34,861 nucleotides of DNA, taken from Microcaldota archaeon (GTDB taxonomy: Archaea; Micrarchaeota; Micrarchaeia; Anstonellales; Bilamarchaeaceae). The notes below the pieces were generated by a model. The model saw only the letters and a list, made by a program, of their open reading frames with translations, had not been told where the DNA came from and ran no database searches. Below, piece after piece: positions 8,227 through 25,408 of this stretch (position 1 is its first letter; every line of letters begins with the position of its first letter). The translations under genes were made by a program, and so were the position numbers. The stretch spans positions 1-34,861 of the forward strand of contig JAFGPA010000018.1 in NCBI GenBank assembly GCA_016926175.1, given 5' to 3'.

Positions 8227-8607
8227 TCAAAGTATGGAAAAGCTTATTGATTTCACTGCCGGGTTTCTCTTTAACCCGGAAAATAATTCCTTTATTTGTG
8301 ACCCTTCGGCACACACCATGATAATGTCTATACAGACGCCGTTGTGATGCTGGTGGAGGGAGGTTCTTATACTGTCAGCATATTCATGGACTATTTCGTG
8401 GATTTTAGGCTGGTCGTTTGCTGTGTAAGTGACAACAATAACGGCATCCGTATGCCCTTTTTGCGATTCTATTTTCTTGTATTCGTTAAGTAATGAATTG
8501 ATGGTTGATCTTAGAAGTTTCGATCTGCTCTTATATCCAAGCTTTTGCTGGAGTTTGTCCAGATCATTTAAGCTCTTGTCGTCCAATGATACGCTGATAA
8601 TTTCCAA
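8227..8607 (-). CDS. nikR: NikR-type nickel-responsive regulator
   Basis: 126 aa. An N-terminal ribbon-helix-helix DNA-binding domain (about 1-45, ISVSLDDKSLNDLDKL and SRSKLLRSTI) is joined to a C-terminal ACT-like metal domain. The ligands of the E. coli protein (H76, H87, H89, C95) are matched by H74, H85, H87 and C92 in SLHQHHNGVC. The start codon is TTG with GGTGAT just upstream. NikR with bound nickel represses nickel uptake. A NikMN-type transporter gene and a [NiFe]-hydrogenase operon lie about 10 kb away in this window, which makes them plausible targets. A dyad at 8642-8665 may be its own operator. Confidence 0.9.
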   Translation of the reverse strand: MEIISVSLDDKSLNDLDKLQQKLGYKSRSKLLRSTINSLLNEYKKIESQKGHTDAVIVVTYTANDQPKIHEIVHEYADSIRTSLHQHHNGVCIDIIMVCAEGSQIKELFSGLKRNPAVKSISFSIL

Positions 8608-9866: not shown

Positions 9867-10118
9867 CTAAAATAAAATTCCGAGAAAATGGAATAATATA
9901 ACCAGGAATACTCCTGCAACTCCGCCAAGCGCTACTATTGCCAAAGACCAGAAGTTGATCGGAATTCCAAGGCCAAGGGCCCAGTTGAGAACCAGGAAAG
10001 TTATCAGACCAAGAACAGAATTGTAAATGACCAGTTTGGGCTCATGAAAAAATCTTATTATCAGAACCACAACAAAAAATGCCAGCAATAAGGCGCCCAG
10101 TCCTATTTCAATTGTCAT
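9867..10118 (-). CDS. BofA-like small membrane protein
   Basis: 83 aa with two or three membrane segments (about 5-22, 32-52 and 57-80). The pattern SVLGLITFLVLNWALG followed by GIPINFWSLAIVALGGVAG resembles the pro-sigmaK processing inhibitor BofA family (PF07441), whose core is VxGLxxLxxxN with GxxxPxN later on. In Bacillus, BofA holds a membrane protease in check, but family members occur in archaea that do not sporulate, so that role cannot be carried over. The gene heads the run with two exported proteins. Confidence 0.65.
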   Translation of the reverse strand: MTIEIGLGALLLAFFVVVLIIRFFHEPKLVIYNSVLGLITFLVLNWALGLGIPINFWSLAIVALGGVAGVFLVILFHFLGILF

Positions 10119-10185
10119 GAAAGCTATTCTGCAGGATCATTTTAATGATTTGCGGAAAATGCCGGAATTTAAGGCATTTAAAGAT

Positions 10186-10402
10186 AAGGGGAAACTGGAC
10201 ACGGCCAAGGAAATGTCAAGGCATGGACTCGAACTTAACCCATTCATGCACTCAAATCATATTCCAAGATGCCACAGAACTACGCGAATGATACAGATTT
10301 CATACAATGAGACGAAGTCCAGTCATTGTATTAATGGTCGATATCAAACGGAGGTTTCCGCAACATACCTTTTTCCAAGGCAACCGAAATGTCCTTCCCC
10401 TT
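10186..10402 (-). ncRNA. candidate structured RNA, copy A
   Basis: The ends pair as AAGGGGAA (10186-10193) with TTCCCCTT (10395-10402), then GGAC (10197-10200) with GTCC (10391-10394), leaving a three-base ACT bulge. The same closing structure, bulge and internal sequence recur in copy B at 11244-11364. Read on the minus strand, both start AAGGGGAAGGAC and continue with a conserved stretch containing TGCCTT and GGAA. An AT-rich region with a TATA-like TAATATATAAT (10418-10428) lies just upstream on the minus strand, which favours that strand. Copy A is about 100 nt longer inside. I do not recognise the family. Confidence 0.6.
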
Positions 10403-10760
10403 AAAAATTAGAGAAGTAATATATAATAATGGGAAAAGTTTTTAATAGTATCTTTTTTTTGTTGTTTTTGACATAAAAATGAGAATTAATATAAAAAATT
10501 ATTGAAAATTATGGTTTATAATAGTAAATTTAATAGAATTATTTTAAAATTTATATATTGATTATTTCTGCCTTGGGTAACAGCGCTTTTATGAAAGCGA
10601 AATTGGAAAGTCTGTTTCCGCGGAAATGAACTGTCCTGGTTTTTCTTTATAAACAAAGCCAGCATATCTTTTTTTTGTGGATATAATCAGGGACGTTTCC
10701 CTGGAATAAAAGAAGGTAGGGGCCCGGTTAGGGCTTCATTATATTAACAAGGTGATTAGA
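10403..10760. other. AT-rich spacer with short hairpins, no gene seen
   Basis: 10403-10560 is extremely AT-rich and looks like promoter-type or non-coding spacer. 10561-10760 is more balanced. It holds CGCTTT/AAAGCG (within 10584-10599), the palindrome TTTCCGCGGAAA around 10616-10626, CAGGGA/TCCCTG at 10688-10703, and a 17-mer (10620-10636) that is repeated exactly at 12677-12693. I see no convincing coding region before the small ORF at 10761. Confidence 0.6.
10620..10636. repeat. 17-bp repeat, copy 1
   Basis: GCGGAAATGAACTGTCC is identical to 12677-12693. On the minus strand both copies have a TATA-like sequence about 10-25 nt upstream (TTTATAAA near 10649, TTTAAAATA near 12709). That may point to a shared promoter-proximal element. 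Confidence 0.55.
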
Positions 10761-10874
10761 TTGACATTTGATGATAAAATCAGGTCTTTGTTTCCCTATA
10801 GAGAAGCACTTGATGATGAGGATAAAAAAATATTTGATTTTTTGATTGAGAGCGCATGGGAAATGGCCCATTGA
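10761..10874 (+). CDS. 37-aa small ORF, possibly a truncated gene
   Basis: It starts with TTG, preceded by GGTGAT six bases upstream (10751-10756), a strong archaeal ribosome-binding site. The peptide begins MTFDDKIRSLFPYREALD and ends ESAWEMAH; it is acidic, amphipathic and protein-like in composition. It could be a genuine small protein or the 5' remnant of a longer gene lost here, since the sequence after the stop turns into a hairpin region. It is not recognised. Confidence 0.4.
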   Translation: MTFDDKIRSLFPYREALDDEDKKIFDFLIESAWEMAH

Positions 10875-10898
10875 TTTGTTCACCCCGAATTGCCATCA

Positions 10899-10940
10899 GA
10901 GGAGCGAGTTGCCGGGAGGCAACTCCCCTCCCACCCTCTA
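10899..10940. terminator. strong hairpin with C-rich flank
   Basis: GAGTTGCC (10906-10913), a GGGA tetraloop and GGCAACTC (10918-10925) make an 8-bp stem, extended by GAGG/CCTC (10899-10902 with 10927-10930). It lies just past the stop of the minus-strand gene ending at 10938 and could end that transcript. The adjoining CCTCCCACCCTCT (10927-10939) is identical to a loop segment at 29337-29349. Confidence 0.45.
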
Positions 10941-11207
10941 GTCCTGCAAACCAAAAACAAACTGGAGAAGCACCGGATGTCTTGACTGGATTACCTTATC
11001 CAGCTTTTCTTTCATTTCCTGTGATTCCCCGGCTTTAGTGTGAAGGTATTCCAGGATCTTGTGCCTGGTTTCCAAAGATTGGAGGATATGGCCATTCAGC
11101 TCTTCGAATTTTGAAGCAAGTTCTTCTGCTTCCGGCCCCAGTTCTTTCAAATCAATTTCCTTTGGCTGGCAATTGCAATCTTCACAGCCTTTACAGTCGT
11201 CACTCAT
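10938..11207 (-). CDS. small protein with N-terminal cysteine cluster
   Basis: 89 aa. The first 15 residues hold four cysteines in the pattern CKGCEDCNC, a likely metal or Fe-S binding site, followed by a helical, probably coiled-coil domain. TTTAAAA near 11240 is a minus-strand TATA box about 30 nt before the ATG. That box overlaps the 3' edge of RNA copy B. Family not recognised. It is flanked on both sides by structured non-coding DNA. Confidence 0.7.
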   Translation of the reverse strand: MSDDCKGCEDCNCQPKEIDLKELGPEAEELASKFEELNGHILQSLETRHKILEYLHTKAGESQEMKEKLDKVIQSRHPVLLQFVFGLQD

Positions 11208-11243
11208 AATATTACCTGCAGAATTAAGGAAAAGAAAGTTTAA

Positions 11244-11364
11244 AAGGGGAAACTGGACTCGGAAAGCATGAAACCATGCTCAGATTACACCAGAGTATGA
11301 GTGTCTTAGGTGGAGCCTCATACCCACACCTTATTCCGAAGGCAGCCAAATAGTCCTTCCCCTT
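11244..11364 (-). ncRNA. candidate structured RNA, copy B
   Basis: This is a compact 121-nt relative of copy A. The closing stem is AAGGGGAA (11244-11251) with TTCCCCTT (11357-11364) plus GGAC (11255-11258) with GTCC (11353-11356), with the same ACT bulge. Inside are hairpin 11265-11270/11275-11280, hairpin 11295-11301/11317-11323, and a possible pseudoknot of AGGTG (11308-11312, in that loop) with CACCT (11327-11331). A TATA-like TTAAAT (11393-11398) lies upstream for the minus strand, and a T-rich tract follows its 3' end. The pseudoknot suggests a compact fold. Family unknown. Confidence 0.6.
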
Positions 11365-11636
11365 AGATGGATTATTTAGGTTAGAAAATTACTTAAATGT
11401 GCCGATTTTCATATATATTTTATACAGAAATACAAGAAAAAGATATAAAAATGTTTAAAAAAAGTTAAAAAAATGTTAAAAATATCCAGCTGATTCTCCC
11501 TGCAGATGCCTCGGAAATACCGATTGGCGTATTTTGTCAGCCATAAGCATAAACAAAGAACAATTAGTATTTATGATAAAGAATTCAGCAACAATCCAGA
11601 AAGATTAGCTTTTGGAAATTTTATGGGAATAAGAAG
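11365..11636. other. AT-rich spacer, no convincing gene
   Basis: 11380-11490 is very AT-rich, like the spacer beside RNA copy A, and on the minus strand would be upstream promoter DNA for copy B. A 72-codon plus-strand frame begins at 11506 but runs into the DtxR gene on the other strand and has no ribosome-binding site or known similarity, so I do not call it. Confidence 0.55.
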
Positions 11637-14377: not shown

Positions 14378-14701
14378 TCACTGGCGTTTCAGTTTTTCTT
14401 TATCCTTTGACACTTTCTCATATTCATTTGTGAAATGGATACATTTCACAGGGCAGACTTCTGCACAAAGGCTGCAGAAGATGCAGCGCCCGATATCAAC
14501 ATATGCCTTCTTGTCTTTTGGGTCGACAACTATTGCTCCGGTAGGGCAATGAATCTGGCAAAGATAACAGCCAATGCATTTCTCACGATCGACAACTATC
14601 CTTCCCCTGTAATTTTTTGAAATGTCGCTTTTTTTCTTTGGATATTTGATTGTTGCAGGCTTTTTCAGCATGTTTTTGATAACTGTGATTGTCATTCCCA
14701 T
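14378..14701 (-). CDS. hydrogenase ferredoxin-like subunit, 2x[4Fe-4S]
   Basis: 107 aa. Two classical motifs, CIGCYLCQIHCP (about residues 42-53) and CIFCSLCAEVCP (about 73-84), each bind a [4Fe-4S] cluster. The layout matches NuoI, EchF and MbhN, which pass electrons between soluble ferredoxin and the small subunit. A basic N-terminal stretch precedes the clusters. The gene sits two bases after the NuoH-like gene. Confidence 0.93.
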   Translation of the reverse strand: MGMTITVIKNMLKKPATIKYPKKKSDISKNYRGRIVVDREKCIGCYLCQIHCPTGAIVVDPKDKKAYVDIGRCIFCSLCAEVCPVKCIHFTNEYEKVSKDKEKLKRQ

Positions 14702-14703
14702 TG

Positions 14704-15543
14704 TTACACCAGCAAAAACAGGTCAATAAATGCTAATATTGCCACAATTATAAAGACTTTCACTGCCTTGAACGTGCAGTATCTTGGAGAAGTTGCCTCC
14801 ATCAGGGTATAGAATATCACAAATCCGAATGCAGCAGGCAAAGCCCATATTTTTCCAAAGAGCAGCAGTCCGGCTACAAGCCCGAATGAAAGGTCTTTGA
14901 TAAATTCTGTAATTTTCAGCAATGCAAGATGATCGCCATAGTATTCGGCAAATAAACCTGCAGATATTTCAGTTTCTGCATTTACAACATCAAATGGAGT
15001 CACTTTCATGACTGCAAATCCAACAAGAACAAGCAGTATTGAGGCGAATGGAACCTGAAGGAATCCGAATTCTATCGAATATGTTCCGAGGCTGACAACT
15101 CCGGTCTTTGCAAAAAACAGTGACATAACCATAAGGAAAGTGGTTTTATAGCCGAGCATAAGCAATAATTCGCGGACGCCTGAATGTATCGCAAATGGGC
15201 TTCTGCTTGCAACTGCCCCAAATATGTAGAATGTATCAAGAAGAATGAAAAGGTATCCGAGTACAATGAAATTGTAGTCAAAATCAAATGATTCCCCCAC
15301 CAAAGCAGATGAAACAATGAACAATATCGCAAAAGAAGCGATTATTGATACGTATGGAACCGCATTGAAGATTGGATTCTCGTAGTTCTCTTTCTTCTTT
15401 GAGAACAGCTTCAGGGTATCATAAAAAGGCTGTATGACTGGCGGCCCTGTACGGTTGTGCAGTCTTGCAAGCAGCTTTCTGTGGAACCCTGCAAAGAGCA
15501 ATGCAACAAATACCAGCAAAAACGTCACTATAAACTCAATCAT
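14704..15543 (-). CDS. hydrogenase membrane subunit, NuoH/EchB/MbhM-like
   Basis: 279 aa from the ATG at 15543, eight bases inside the large-subunit 3' end; an upstream in-frame ATG at 15567 is less likely. About eight membrane helices. Family signatures include RTGPPVIQPFYDTLKLFSKK near the start and PFDVVNAETEISAGLFAEYY in the middle, the acidic loop that in complex I faces the quinone or ion channel. It anchors the hydrogenase to the membrane and links redox chemistry to ion movement. Confidence 0.94.
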   Translation of the reverse strand: MIEFIVTFLLVFVALLFAGFHRKLLARLHNRTGPPVIQPFYDTLKLFSKKKENYENPIFNAVPYVSIIASFAILFIVSSALVGESFDFDYNFIVLGYLFILLDTFYIFGAVASRSPFAIHSGVRELLLMLGYKTTFLMVMSLFFAKTGVVSLGTYSIEFGFLQVPFASILLVLVGFAVMKVTPFDVVNAETEISAGLFAEYYGDHLALLKITEFIKDLSFGLVAGLLLFGKIWALPAAFGFVIFYTLMEATSPRYCTFKAVKVFIIVAILAFIDLFLLV

Positions 15544-16687
15544 GTTTTTTTCCTCTGAACAGCTCATGGCTGCTCCATACTTCTGTTTTTCCTTTTTTTA
15601 TTACTGCAACCCTTTCCATGCAGGAAATGCACGGGTCCATGCTCATGACAATAACGGGAGCATCGGTAATGTCTGCACCCTGCAAAACCTTGGGGTACAT
15701 CACGAGATTTGCAACTGTTGGGGTTCTTATTTTTACACGTTTGGTTTTTGCCATGTCAATTTTAACAAAATGGAAGTTTTCGCCTCTTGGAGCTTCCACC
15801 CTTCCAGCGCCCTGTCCATGGAAAATCCTTTTTACAGGGTATTTTGGAACCTTGCTTTTCGGTATTTTGGAACATGCTTCTTCAACAATGCGCATTGATT
15901 CGAATGTTTCATCAAGCCTCACCAGGGTCCTGGCATGCACATCACCTTCTGTCCTTACAACAGGATTGACTTTCACAAACTGGTAGCCCAGATATGGGGC
16001 ATTGACACGAACGTCATAGCTGATTCCCGATGCACGTGCAACCGGACCTACAAGGCCGTATTTGACTGCATCTGCCCTTGTGATTTTCCCTTTTCCAATA
16101 CACCTGTCTCTTATCACATCATGGCCTTCTACAGATCTCCGGTAATCTTCCAGTTTGTCTTTCATCGAATCAAATGTTTTGGATATCATTTCAATATCTT
16201 CTTCACTGAAATTCATTTTCATGGTGCCTATAAGATCAGCAGAATGATGGACGCGGTTGCCGGTCAGTTCATCAAAAACATCAAGGATCTTTTCCCTTTC
16301 ACGCATGTAATACATAAACAGCGTTTCAAGGCCCATTTCATGCATCATAACGCCGCTCCAGAGCATGTGGGAATGGATTCTTTCAAGCTCTGCAATGACC
16401 ATCCTTTGCAATGCAACTCTTTTTGGTATCCTTATCTGCCCCATGGGCTCAACTGCATTGAGGAATGCAAGTGAATGGCATTGGGAGCAGATGCCGCACG
16501 TTCTCTGCACTGCATGTAGCGTGGTATCGATTTCTTTGTTCTCCATTTTTTCCTCAACCCCACGATGGGCATATCCAAGGTCAAATTCTGCTTTTTCAAT
16601 CACTGTTCCTTCAACATAGAGCTTCAGAAAGATCGGCTCCTTCAGGGAAGGGTGCTGTGGCCCTATTGGAAACATTGTCCGGTGCAT
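15536..16687 (-). CDS. group 4 [NiFe]-hydrogenase large subunit
   Basis: 383 aa. Both nickel-binding motifs are present: RTCGIC (C64, C67) and DPCISC (C353, C356), so this is a true hydrogenase and not a NuoD-type subunit that has lost the metal. A 24-residue tail follows DPCISCMER. In E. coli HycE the HycI protease cuts after the equivalent Arg, so cleavage after R359 by the protease encoded at 18196-18618 is predicted. The start overlaps the NuoC-like gene; MFPIGPQHP at residue 5 could also be the start. Closest type by motifs is Ech/Mbh. Confidence 0.95.
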   Translation of the reverse strand: MHRTMFPIGPQHPSLKEPIFLKLYVEGTVIEKAEFDLGYAHRGVEEKMENKEIDTTLHAVQRTCGICSQCHSLAFLNAVEPMGQIRIPKRVALQRMVIAELERIHSHMLWSGVMMHEMGLETLFMYYMREREKILDVFDELTGNRVHHSADLIGTMKMNFSEEDIEMISKTFDSMKDKLEDYRRSVEGHDVIRDRCIGKGKITRADAVKYGLVGPVARASGISYDVRVNAPYLGYQFVKVNPVVRTEGDVHARTLVRLDETFESMRIVEEACSKIPKSKVPKYPVKRIFHGQGAGRVEAPRGENFHFVKIDMAKTKRVKIRTPTVANLVMYPKVLQGADITDAPVIVMSMDPCISCMERVAVIKKGKTEVWSSHELFRGKKHD

Positions 16688-16971
16688 TTTTTCTCCTCCC
16701 GAAATAATCTTTTGCCGCTTGAAGGGTTTCCTTCAAAAGTTATTCCAAACATCTCTGCTGTTTCTGCTTCAAGAATTTCCGCATTTGCATAAAGAGAAAT
16801 AAGCGATTCAACAGACTCTCCTTTGGGAACTTCTATTTTCAGCTCTTTCATTTTCAGCTGGTTGTTTTTCGAAAAATGATAGTAAAGAAGGAATGGTTCT
16901 TCTTTTATGCCAGTAACTGAAACTAGCCGGTCAGCACTAATCCTTTTTGCCTTGCTTAGTATTTTTATCAT
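16663..16971 (-). CDS. hydrogenase subunit, NuoC/EchD-like
   Basis: 102 aa, short for the NuoC family. The recognisable part is the segment around LEAETAEMFGITFEGNPSSG followed by KRLF, matching the EREVYDMFGIxFxGHP signature. It bridges the large and small subunits in complex I relatives. It overlaps both neighbours (35 bp with the small subunit, 25 bp with the large subunit), consistent with coupled translation in fixed ratio. Confidence 0.88.
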   Translation of the reverse strand: MIKILSKAKRISADRLVSVTGIKEEPFLLYYHFSKNNQLKMKELKIEVPKGESVESLISLYANAEILEAETAEMFGITFEGNPSSGKRLFREEKKCTGQCFQ

Positions 16972-17359
16972 CTAACGCCTCCAGTATCGCTTTTATTATT
17001 GTTTCGGGCCTTGGCGGACAGCCAGGCACATAGACTGTTACGGGAATAACATTGTCCAAAGGTCCGGCATGGGCCTGTGACCCCCTGTAGATTCCTCCGG
17101 TAATAGCGCATGCACCAACTGCAACAACACGTTTCGGCTCTGCCATCTGCTCATAGATATTGATGATCCTTTTCCTATTATGCTTGTTTACAATTCCTGT
17201 TACAACAAGGACGTCTGCATGTTTTGCGCTTGCTTTTACTTCAATTCCAAACCTGGTAATATCAAATTTCGGATTGGTGCATGCAAGGAATTCAAGTGTG
17301 CAGCCATTGCATCCTCCTGCATTGTAAAAGCTCACCCACGGAGATTTTTTTATGGTCAT
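16937..17359 (-). CDS. hydrogenase small subunit, NuoB/EchC/MbhJ-like
   Basis: 140 aa. The four ligands of the proximal [4Fe-4S] cluster are visible: GGCNGCTLE (C17, C20), VGACAITGG and PGCPPRP. The short form without extra clusters fits group 4 hydrogenases. It passes electrons between the ferredoxin-like subunit and the NiFe site. Its ATG overlaps the stop of the 35-codon ORF upstream (ATGA), and its 3' end overlaps the NuoC-like gene. Confidence 0.95.
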   Translation of the reverse strand: MTIKKSPWVSFYNAGGCNGCTLEFLACTNPKFDITRFGIEVKASAKHADVLVVTGIVNKHNRKRIINIYEQMAEPKRVVAVGACAITGGIYRGSQAHAGPLDNVIPVTVYVPGCPPRPETIIKAILEALDDKNTKQGKKD

Positions 17360-17463
17360 TTTCTCCTCCAGATATCATTCAGCAGTGCCTTAAGGAACTC
17401 GTTGAAATCCTTTGGTGCAAGCTTGTTAACATCAATGTCTTCCCCGCCAAGATAGAGTTTCAT
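17356..17463 (-). CDS. 35-aa micro-ORF inside the hydrogenase operon
   Basis: MKLYLGGEDIDVNKLAPKDF continues through a helix to LLNDIWRRK. Its ATG overlaps the stop of the antiporter-like gene (ATGA), and its stop overlaps the ATG of the small subunit (ATGA), so it fills the space exactly with no other frame. Such perfect coupling on both sides is strong evidence for translation. Ribosome-binding sites for the small subunit (GGAGGA) lie inside it. I know no such subunit in Ech or Mbh; it could be an assembly or accessory peptide that binds between small subunit and membrane arm. Confidence 0.75.
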   Translation of the reverse strand: MKLYLGGEDIDVNKLAPKDFNEFLKALLNDIWRRK

Positions 17464-18164
17464 GTAACCATCTCAAGTATTGTAAAAAGTATTTGCGGGA
17501 TCACACCCAAACCGACAATTATTATTCCAAGGGCCGTTCCCAGGAATTTTAACGGGAGAGGCACTGGAATTGTGATTTCACTTGTCCTTACCAATAACGT
17601 ATAGCAAATTCTGAAATAGAAAAGGAATACGATAAGCCCTGCGAAGATTGCCAGCATTGCCAGGGCAGGATGAATTGCAAACAACGCTGAATAAAGCAGG
17701 AATTCGCCCACGAATATGTTGAAACCTATCCTGCCTCCCAATGACAAACAGCTTATTGAAATAAGAAAAACAAGGAATTTGTTTTTCTCATAAAGACCTG
17801 CATAATCAGTAAGATCATTTTTCCTGACAGAAGAATAGAGAAATACAAATACAAGCATGAAAAGGCCTCCTGCAATTGCAAAATTGAGAACTTGTATAAT
17901 AGTAAACCAGAGAGGCTTGCCGGTCATTATTGCAGATCCGGCATCCAGCACAAAATAGGCCGTCTGGATTATCGTCGAGAAAATAACATAGGAAATAATG
18001 GATTTCTGGAACAGTCCGGACCAGCTGAACAGGAGGATGGCAAATATGCCTATGAGAACAAGCGGAAGGCCGCAGGAAGCATCAATTTCGGGCTGAAGCT
18101 GCAGAAAGTAAATCATGCCTGCCAGTGCAAGCAGAAAAACGATTATTGCTATTGCTCCCTTCAT
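17460..18164 (-). CDS. truncated antiporter-like hydrogenase subunit (NuoN/M type)
   Basis: 234 aa, about eight membrane helices, roughly half the usual 450-600 aa. DLTDYAGLYEKNKFLVF and the following SCLSLGGRIGFNIFVGEFLL align with the NuoN/MrpD region that normally reads LSLAGIPPxxGFxGKF; here the Pro pair is missing and the Lys of GKF is Glu. The N-terminal half, which normally carries the TM5 Glu and TM7 Lys of the ion channel, is absent. No other NuoL/M/N gene is in the window. Ion pumping by this subunit is therefore uncertain. It starts 31 bases after the maturation protease gene. Confidence 0.8.
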   Translation of the reverse strand: MKGAIAIIVFLLALAGMIYFLQLQPEIDASCGLPLVLIGIFAILLFSWSGLFQKSIISYVIFSTIIQTAYFVLDAGSAIMTGKPLWFTIIQVLNFAIAGGLFMLVFVFLYSSVRKNDLTDYAGLYEKNKFLVFLISISCLSLGGRIGFNIFVGEFLLYSALFAIHPALAMLAIFAGLIVFLFYFRICYTLLVRTSEITIPVPLPLKFLGTALGIIIVGLGVIPQILFTILEMVT

Positions 18165-18666: not shown

Positions 18667-19527
18667 ATGCACACTCCAGATGGATTTCTTACTGATGGCA
18701 TATGCCTCCTCATGATTTTTATTTCTGCAGTTCCATTGGCGCTTGCAATAAAAAATGTGCGGAAAAACAGGCCGGCAATTGCCCCCATAGCAACGGTTGC
18801 CGCAATAATCTTCCTTGCCCAGATGTTCAACTTCCCAATAGAAAGCGGCACGAGCGGACATCTGATTGGAGCAACTTTTGCGCTTTTGATACTGGGAATT
18901 GACGGAGCAATAATAGCAATGGCTTCTGTGCTTCTTGTCCAGACCCTGGTTTTTGGAGACGGAGGGCTCTTTGCAGTTGGAGCAAACATATTCAACATGG
19001 GGGTAGTTGGAATTTATTCTTCTCATTTTATCATGCAGTGGACAACTGTAAAAAGACACGTAAGAATATTTATTGCATCAGTGCTGTCTGTTCTGGCTGC
19101 GGCATCAGCAGTCTCTATTCAGCTTGCACTGAGCGGAACGGTTGTATTTTCGATGGTTGTTCCTGCAATGCTTTTCACTCATTCAATGATAGGAATCGGT
19201 GAAGGCTTTTTGACGATACTGCTGGTAAGCATTTTTTCAAACCGTCTCAGAATTCCAGGAATAAGAACGGCCCTGGGGCTTTCAGGAATGGCTTTTCTGG
19301 CACTTGCCGCGATCATTCCTTTTGCTTCAGATAATCCGGATGGGCTTGAAAAGATCGCAATAGATTATGGCTTCTTCGAATCGCAGACCCTTTTTTATTC
19401 TGCCCCGATTCCTGAATATTCTGTTCCGCTGATTGCTTCGGCATGGATTGCCACTGTTTCAGCCGCAGCAATAGGAGCTATATTAAGTTTTATGCTGCCA
19501 TATAGTACATTGGCTATCAGGGGATAA
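18667..19527 (+). CDS. nikMN: nickel transport protein NikMN (CbiM-type S component)
   Basis: 286 aa, about eight membrane helices. The N-terminus MHTPDG carries the His2 that binds the metal together with the amino terminus in CbiM/NikM proteins; this demands the ATG at 18667. A PDGLE motif (in SDNPDGLEKIAI) marks the fused CbiN/NikN-like C-terminal part, typical of nickel rather than cobalt versions. These energy-coupling-factor transporters need the CbiQ-type T protein and CbiO ATPase, which are not in the window. The neighbours (hydrogenase, HycI, NikR) indicate nickel. Confidence 0.9.
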   Translation: MHTPDGFLTDGICLLMIFISAVPLALAIKNVRKNRPAIAPIATVAAIIFLAQMFNFPIESGTSGHLIGATFALLILGIDGAIIAMASVLLVQTLVFGDGGLFAVGANIFNMGVVGIYSSHFIMQWTTVKRHVRIFIASVLSVLAAASAVSIQLALSGTVVFSMVVPAMLFTHSMIGIGEGFLTILLVSIFSNRLRIPGIRTALGLSGMAFLALAAIIPFASDNPDGLEKIAIDYGFFESQTLFYSAPIPEYSVPLIASAWIATVSAAAIGAILSFMLPYSTLAIRG

Positions 19528-25266: not shown

Positions 25267-25408
25267 GGCCACGACTGGGAATCGAACCCAGGCCGAGAGG
25301 ACCACAACCTCCCACGCTACCATTGCGCAGTTTCCGGCTCTCTGCATCCGGCATCCGGAAACCGGAGACGGGATACATCAGGCTGAAAACACCTACGCTA
25401 TCGTGGCC
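25267..25408 (-). tRNA. tRNA-His (GTG) with a 70-nt insertion in the D stem
   Basis: On the minus strand the T-arm (CTGGG TTCGATT CCCAG), the anticodon arm with loop TTGTGGT (anticodon GTG) and the D loop AATGGTA lie together. The matching 5' acceptor strand GCCACGA (25407-25401) lies 70 nt further upstream than expected and pairs 7 of 7 with TCGTGGC (25274-25268). An encoded G-1 (25408) faces C73 (25267), the tRNA-His identity pair. Removing 25326-25395 (or a one- to three-base shift, since GCG is repeated) restores a GCGC/GCGT D stem. No CCA is encoded. TTTTTAAAC near 25446-25454 is a good TATA box. Confidence 0.85.
25326..25395 (-). other. candidate tRNA intron (about position 12/13)
   Basis: This 70-nt insertion interrupts the D stem. 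It contains a strong hairpin, GTTTCCGG with CCGGAAAC, on the minus strand. The flanks pair as GCGTAG (25398-25393) with CTGCGC (25330-25325), so the splice sites lie in or next to a helix. I cannot demonstrate a canonical bulge-helix-bulge, but archaeal tRNA introns at non-standard positions are known. Confidence 0.65.

Follow-up and report, generated by a model that had tools for sequence, protein, structure and literature searches.

A structured RNA family of DPANN archaea, usually linked to a small basic protein gene, with two unequal copies in a Micrarchaeota contig

The longer of two related minus-strand elements in a Microcaldota archaeon (contig JAFGPA010000018.1; the whole stretch of 34,861 nt that was analyzed is called the window here) is a complete member of a previously uncatalogued RNA family. 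The original prediction had taken both elements for diverged copies of a functional RNA transcribed from the minus strand and outside Rfam. Covariance search, Rfam comparison, and covariation all speak for such a family, as far as sequence can indicate. The reading favored here, with moderate confidence, is that of a DPANN-specific structured RNA that acts in trans and usually forms a ribonucleoprotein with a small basic protein. Apart from its variable closing stem the RNA measures about 205 nt, with four helical arms at a junction and a long-range pseudoknot; it would be transcribed from its own TATA promoter and act in trans. In most genomes, one transcript probably holds both the RNA and a tiny Lys/Arg-rich protein, its likely dedicated RNA-binding partner, and in other genomes, including that of the window, the RNA would be a stand-alone gene. 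The DPANN restriction and the partner protein both go beyond what had been claimed originally.

The two window copies (long copy, 10186..10403, closing stem to closing stem; short copy, 11244..11364, both on the minus strand) share their ends as described: positions 10186-10204 and 11244-11262 are identical at 18 of 19 positions, and 10372-10403 and 11334-11365 at 81%. In a BLAST search with the short copy, its 5′ block matches its own genome (E=1.2e-4). Used as a DNA query against 59 genomes, the short copy gave no BLAST match beyond its own genome; its short form therefore appears private, and for the same reason the family was reached through synteny, by examining the downstream genes of both window copies in relatives. 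The short copy is followed after 36 nt by the gene for a conserved Cys-rich protein of 89 aa (10938..11207, minus strand), which marks the ancestral cassette site and is present in seven of 17 genus genomes, that of the window included. At this site the relatives G008, G009, and G015 carry a full RNA, followed by a basic protein gene and the 89-aa gene. Their RNA and the long copy have the blocks CAUUUCGGUUG, GACUGGACU or GGCUGGACU, AUGGGUUAAG, and a GAGUCCAG-type block in common. The closing stems are GAUGCCUUUCGA/UCGAAAGGCAUC in the relatives and AAGGGGAA/UUCCCCUU in the long copy; different yet paired, they imply compensatory change spanning the entire helix, so that the closing stem is wholly changed in sequence with its pairing kept. 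BLAST with the RNA of the relatives gave matches in 19 of 43 family genomes.

An alignment of 17 sequences assembled without pattern selection (A3) has both-sided changes in 39 of its 69 pairs, and its 114 double-change cells compare with 41 ± 6 in shuffles. The covariance model R1 spans 206 positions and was built from 17 sequences that include the long copy and exclude the short one; on the window it scores 127.5 bits for the long copy (E=2.7e-34; match at 10197-10394) and 19.3 bits for the short one (E=3e-4; match at 11255-11356). Across 80 copies aligned to R1 (A4), 91.8% of cells pair, and the 730 double-change cells stand against 192 ± 16 in shuffles and a maximum of 144 in slid controls. 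Alignments A4 and A6 were made to R1’s own structure and favor that structure. The 78 source loci of A4 were found by a pattern fixing TCGG...ACCGAGTCCA, so that the invariance of P3 and GUCCA in A4 arises partly by construction; this constraint does not apply to A3 or to copies recovered by model or BLAST. When column pairs are ranked by mutual information, the strongest are nearly all predicted pairs, the main exception being the long-range pseudoknot. The long copy folds more stably than shuffled sequences (z=-3.2), and the short copy moderately so (z=-2.3).

The family RNA has 40-odd nearly invariant bases. In the long copy, the 5′ strand of the outer stem P1 (UAAGGGGAA, 10395..10403) pairs with the 3′ strand at 10185-10193 (UUCCCCUUA). 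Throughout the family the sequence of P1 is freely variable; at least 6 bp form in 60 of 80 copies, and the stem beats the 95th percentile of mismatched controls in 43 of 80. The closing-stem analysis also places an AGT bulge inside the long copy’s P1 (10194-10196). The three-base bulge recorded originally is real and finds its explanation here, since an AGN bulge after GUCC is conserved in nearly every copy. The P4 hairpin (10368..10381) with its UGGAA(A) loop is defined by the R1 alignment and has compensated pairs across the family, while the P6 hairpin (10303..10331) carries the invariant loop CUGGAC at 10317-10322. The pseudoknot joins AAUCU (10295..10299) to GGGUU in the P7/P8 loop (10237..10241); at the family level this is AACCY (model positions 97-101) with RGGUU (157-161), where compensated changes among CG, UA, and AU are found. 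Two distant genomes carry inserts of about 40 nt in the conserved P6 loop (GGACUA^UAACUC; G012, L076:1561-1845, and G020, L110 at about 1580-1640), and in G012 the P8 loop (GGGUUA^AGAUU) contains a further insert of a similar kind. These inserts form hairpins and may be introns; in a simple scan for bulge-helix-bulge introns, excision did not restore the consensus loop.

The TATA-containing flank reported on the same side of both copies is present: TTATATA lies at 10420..10426 and TTTAAGTA at 11390..11397, about 20 to 30 nt upstream of the respective closing stems. Family-wide, TATA-like boxes peak at the same distance: 50 of 78 copies have one 31-50 nt ahead of model position 1, vs 23 in shuffled sequences. 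A coding reading of the opposite strand (ORF 10117-10404, plus strand) was rejected, as it has no Pfam match and the base pairs are conserved on the other strand. A transposon end or mobile relic was likewise rejected given the lack of a conserved flanking gene, the one to three diverged copies per genome, and RNA-type covariation throughout. On both counts the original judgment that the elements are neither coding nor transposon relics is borne out.

The 3′ strand GUCCAG (10195..10200 in the long copy) is found in 83 of 89 copies, and its exact complement, the P6 loop CUGGAC, in 86 of 89. The two can form six Watson–Crick pairs in 85 of 89 copies, with compensated changes in L134 (AUGGAC/GUCCAU) and L193 (UUGGAC/GUCCAA); the exceptions are one uncompensated A-A in L111 and a C-U mismatch in three copies. 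GUCC also pairs with the 5′ strand to form P2. This 5′ strand reads GGAC in 50, GGAU in 25, and GGGC in nine of 89 copies, a variation that is almost only wobble-compatible. P2 and the P6-loop pairing are predicted to be mutually exclusive, which suggests a strand-exchange switch: GUCCAG would pair alternately with the 5′ strand and the P6 loop, and the particle probably switches between two conformations.

With the covariance model, a genome search found homologs in 27 of the 84 genomes searched in the order, and in 32 of 301 at class level (about 11%). When the GTDB species collection, with its roughly 85,000 species of bacteria and archaea, was scanned with a sequence pattern, 78 stretches were returned, whose record titles name Woesearchaeota, Micrarchaeota, Nanoarchaeota/Nanoarchaeia, Diapherotrites/ainarchaeum, Pacearchaeota, and one Aenigmatarchaeota, with six archaeal records lacking a lineage name; none of the 78 belongs to bacteria or to named non-DPANN archaea. 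The family is thus restricted to DPANN archaea, in several lineages. Some genomes hold several copies, with three loci in C4_metabat.bin.63. Tandem RNA pairs, each member scoring well, stand ahead of one basic-protein gene at L121:3896-4326 and L191:2846-3283.

A basic ORF follows the RNA on the same strand in 71 of 80 named copies (70 by motif script, plus L154). It encodes 35-95 residues very rich in Lys and Arg and mostly starts 8-60 nt downstream of the RNA, the distance for the upstream member of a tandem pair including the second RNA. These short distances imply a single transcript. The protein core GRxPSxKxKxSKVxKLIKLAK has an Arg, two Ser, and three Lys that are (nearly) invariant, and ten examples compared with Pfam and NCBIfam gave no significant match. 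A profile of the protein matches in 21 of 296 class genomes, 20 of which are RNA-positive with the match adjoining the RNA; the 21st, G007, has RNA fragments at contig ends. Among these 296 genomes the protein never occurs without the RNA, and the RNA also occurs alone. About a dozen genomes, that of the window among them, have the RNA without a detectable basic protein, the exact number depending on search sensitivity, as G048, counted here, has a diverged basic ORF. An all-against-all BLAST of RNA neighbors revealed no other recurring neighbor gene. The linkage and the charge of the protein suggest that it binds the RNA.

At the ancestral cassette site, the window genome has lost the basic ORF and the core of the RNA has been replaced. 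The short copy retains P3, P4, and the outer stems; P5-P8 are missing from it, along with the conserved pseudoknot and the CUGGAC loop that is invariant in the family. The view of two copies of one RNA stands, but the copies are unequal, one complete and one gutted. As for the pseudoknot originally assigned to the short copy, AGGTG (11308-11312) is indeed complementary to CACCT (11327-11331), and this pairing interleaves with that of GTATGAG (11296-11302) and CTCATAC (11318-11324), but only the short copy has it, and it is no family feature. The site of the long copy, between the 89-aa gene and a BofA-like gene, is without an RNA in the relatives examined. Most likely the RNA was duplicated and the ancestral copy then decayed; the short copy is a gutted duplicate at the ancestral site, probably decaying or reduced to a leader hairpin. 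In G006, the short-copy site holds a minimal perfect hairpin (L012:1900-1960, GAGGGGAAUGGUCUUUCGAGUCCAUUUCCCCUUC), which is the closing stem alone with the RNA core deleted; the full RNA of G006 sits elsewhere in its genome.

Further features of the window were recorded. The BofA-like membrane protein gene (9867..10118, minus strand; PF07441, E=1.2e-7), 67 nt downstream of the long copy, does not adjoin the RNA in relatives and is probably an unrelated neighbor. The 89-aa protein begins with a Cys-rich N-terminus (CKGCEDCNC), and its conserved helical part ends in HPVLLQFVFG. It is carried by several genus genomes, has no confident Pfam family, and is possibly metal-binding. Opposite its gene lies a small ORF (10757-10875, plus strand; MTFDDKIRSLFPYREALDDEDKKIFDFLIESAWEMAH) with counterparts at the same position in related genomes. 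By eye, the window also contains genes resembling those of an energy-converting [NiFe]-hydrogenase, together with a CbiM-like transporter (14378-18164, minus strand; 18667-19527, plus strand), and a NikR regulator at 8227-8607 (minus strand) has Pfam support. Such content is unusual in a 1-Mb DPANN genome.

The strongest alternative, less likely than the favored reading, is that the RNA is a cis-regulatory leader, riboswitch-like or autoregulated, at the 5′ end of the basic-protein gene, in which P1/P2 and the loop pairing would compete to control translation; copies without the protein would have been re-used ahead of other genes. It draws on the protein start 8-60 nt downstream in most copies, too near for an independent promoter, on the single gene type that follows the RNA in 71 of 80 copies, and on the common 3′ strand of the mutually exclusive helices, which adjoins the ORF. 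In the window, too, each copy has a same-strand gene downstream, at a distance of 36 and 67 nt. One subgroup, with the start codon 8-13 nt after GUCC and the outer stem little developed or absent, resembles a cis-acting leader and counts against a trans-acting RNA. A leader would, however, be expected always to lie upstream of its regulated gene, and nine of 80 copies have no common downstream gene. About 12 copies that lack the protein retain the whole fold. They stand ahead of tRNAs, of unrelated genes, or of no gene at all, with T-runs after them, and the RNA is much better conserved than the protein it would regulate. In the copies without the protein, 87% of pairs are kept, with double changes in 50 of 69 pairs at a mean identity of 60%, and the T-runs after the stem are longer (p=7e-6), which is what archaeal RNA genes standing alone should show; the kept fold and longer T-runs of these copies therefore favor a function in trans. 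The trans-acting RNA thus remains the preferred reading, with a leader role possible at protein-bearing loci, most of all in the 8-13 nt subgroup.

A selfish or addiction-type RNA–protein cassette spreading among DPANN archaea, in which the RNA might for instance neutralize or carry the small basic protein, is improbable. The patchy distribution combined with high conservation across families would fit it, as would the several copies per genome at varied insertion sites. Against it, no nuclease, integrase, or other recurring gene flanks the RNA, a search of IMG/VR for a viral carrier gave no match, the basic protein falls in no known toxin family of Pfam or NCBIfam, and retention of the RNA without the protein is contrary to what addiction predicts. 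Very improbable is a highly diverged known RNA (SRP, RNase P, tmRNA, H/ACA, or an rRNA fragment), which would share size and a single-copy habit in many genomes with housekeeping RNAs, but the family has no Rfam match, occurs in so few of the class genomes, and coexists with SRP and RNase P RNAs at separate loci.

These comparisons rest on several searches. At gathering thresholds, Rfam 15 recognized nothing in the whole window except a tRNA at 25275-25328. This tRNA-like match (minus strand, 37 bits, positions 10-63 of 71) has no ARAGORN counterpart and is possibly a partial or intron-containing tRNA gene. In E-value mode, 2.4 kb and the homologous loci gave chance-level matches only, located elsewhere, and 281 bases around a homolog gave none up to E=10. 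The initial failure to recognize SRP RNA, RNase P RNA, tRNA, or a riboswitch is thereby confirmed, as Rfam 15 has no match at either copy. Archaeal SRP RNA (RF01857) was rejected, as it has separate loci in 15 of 16 family genomes tested and is not found in the window’s own genome (G000), an incomplete assembly. Archaeal RNase P RNA (RF00373) was rejected as well; its best match in the window’s genome lies on another contig (G000:C21:2305-2610, E=1e-16, below the gathering score). K-turn, C/D, or H/ACA RNAs were set aside for want of matching boxes by inspection and of an Rfam match, OLE RNA for want of an Rfam match, and type III toxin–antitoxin systems on the ground that the ten partner proteins match neither Pfam nor NCBIfam and belong to no known endoribonuclease toxin family. 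No prior description of the family was found in the open-access literature, subscription papers and most preprints lying outside the scope of that search.

OLE RNA is a large conserved structured RNA with the gene for a dedicated small protein adjoining. The present family resembles the OLE, ROOL, and GOLLD RNAs, described in PMC12286853, as an orphan ornate RNA that is conserved and structured, and OLE in particular through its adjoining gene for a dedicated small protein; unlike these larger, bacterial RNAs, with which it has neither a sequence match nor an Rfam match in common, it is archaeal, and its partner is a short Lys/Arg-rich peptide. Four archaeal ribosomal-protein leaders, for S15, eL15, and L4, have been reported in a text from which DPANN archaea are absent (PMC7247131). 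Like them, the family has a gene for a small basic protein immediately after a structured RNA, but the partner matches no ribosomal family and the RNA persists without it. Type III toxin–antitoxin systems similarly have an RNA gene directly ahead of a small protein gene, at times in tandem, yet here an array of short antitoxin repeats is lacking, the partner is a tiny basic protein, and the RNA is kept without it. With archaeal SRP and RNase P RNAs the family has in common a closing P1 stem, a junction of arms, and an archaeal TATA promoter, whereas it matches neither model and both RNAs exist separately in family genomes.

The DPANN archaea rank with the most diverse prokaryotes and with those least understood; to our knowledge no structured RNA has been recognized as their own. 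RNAs of this complexity are often catalytic or form the cores of cellular machines. The family provides, in several DPANN lineages, a complex and strongly conserved RNA that contains a pseudoknot, probably switches by strand exchange, and is strictly linked to a tiny protein. It can be tested directly by means of the covariance model, the partner protein, and the two gene architectures. Tentatively, and with less than even confidence, the family may be a DPANN-specific ribonucleoprotein machine, composed of a pseudoknotted switching RNA, possibly a ribozyme, and a basic peptide cofactor, which would have been passed between lineages and would serve their reduced or symbiotic cell biology.
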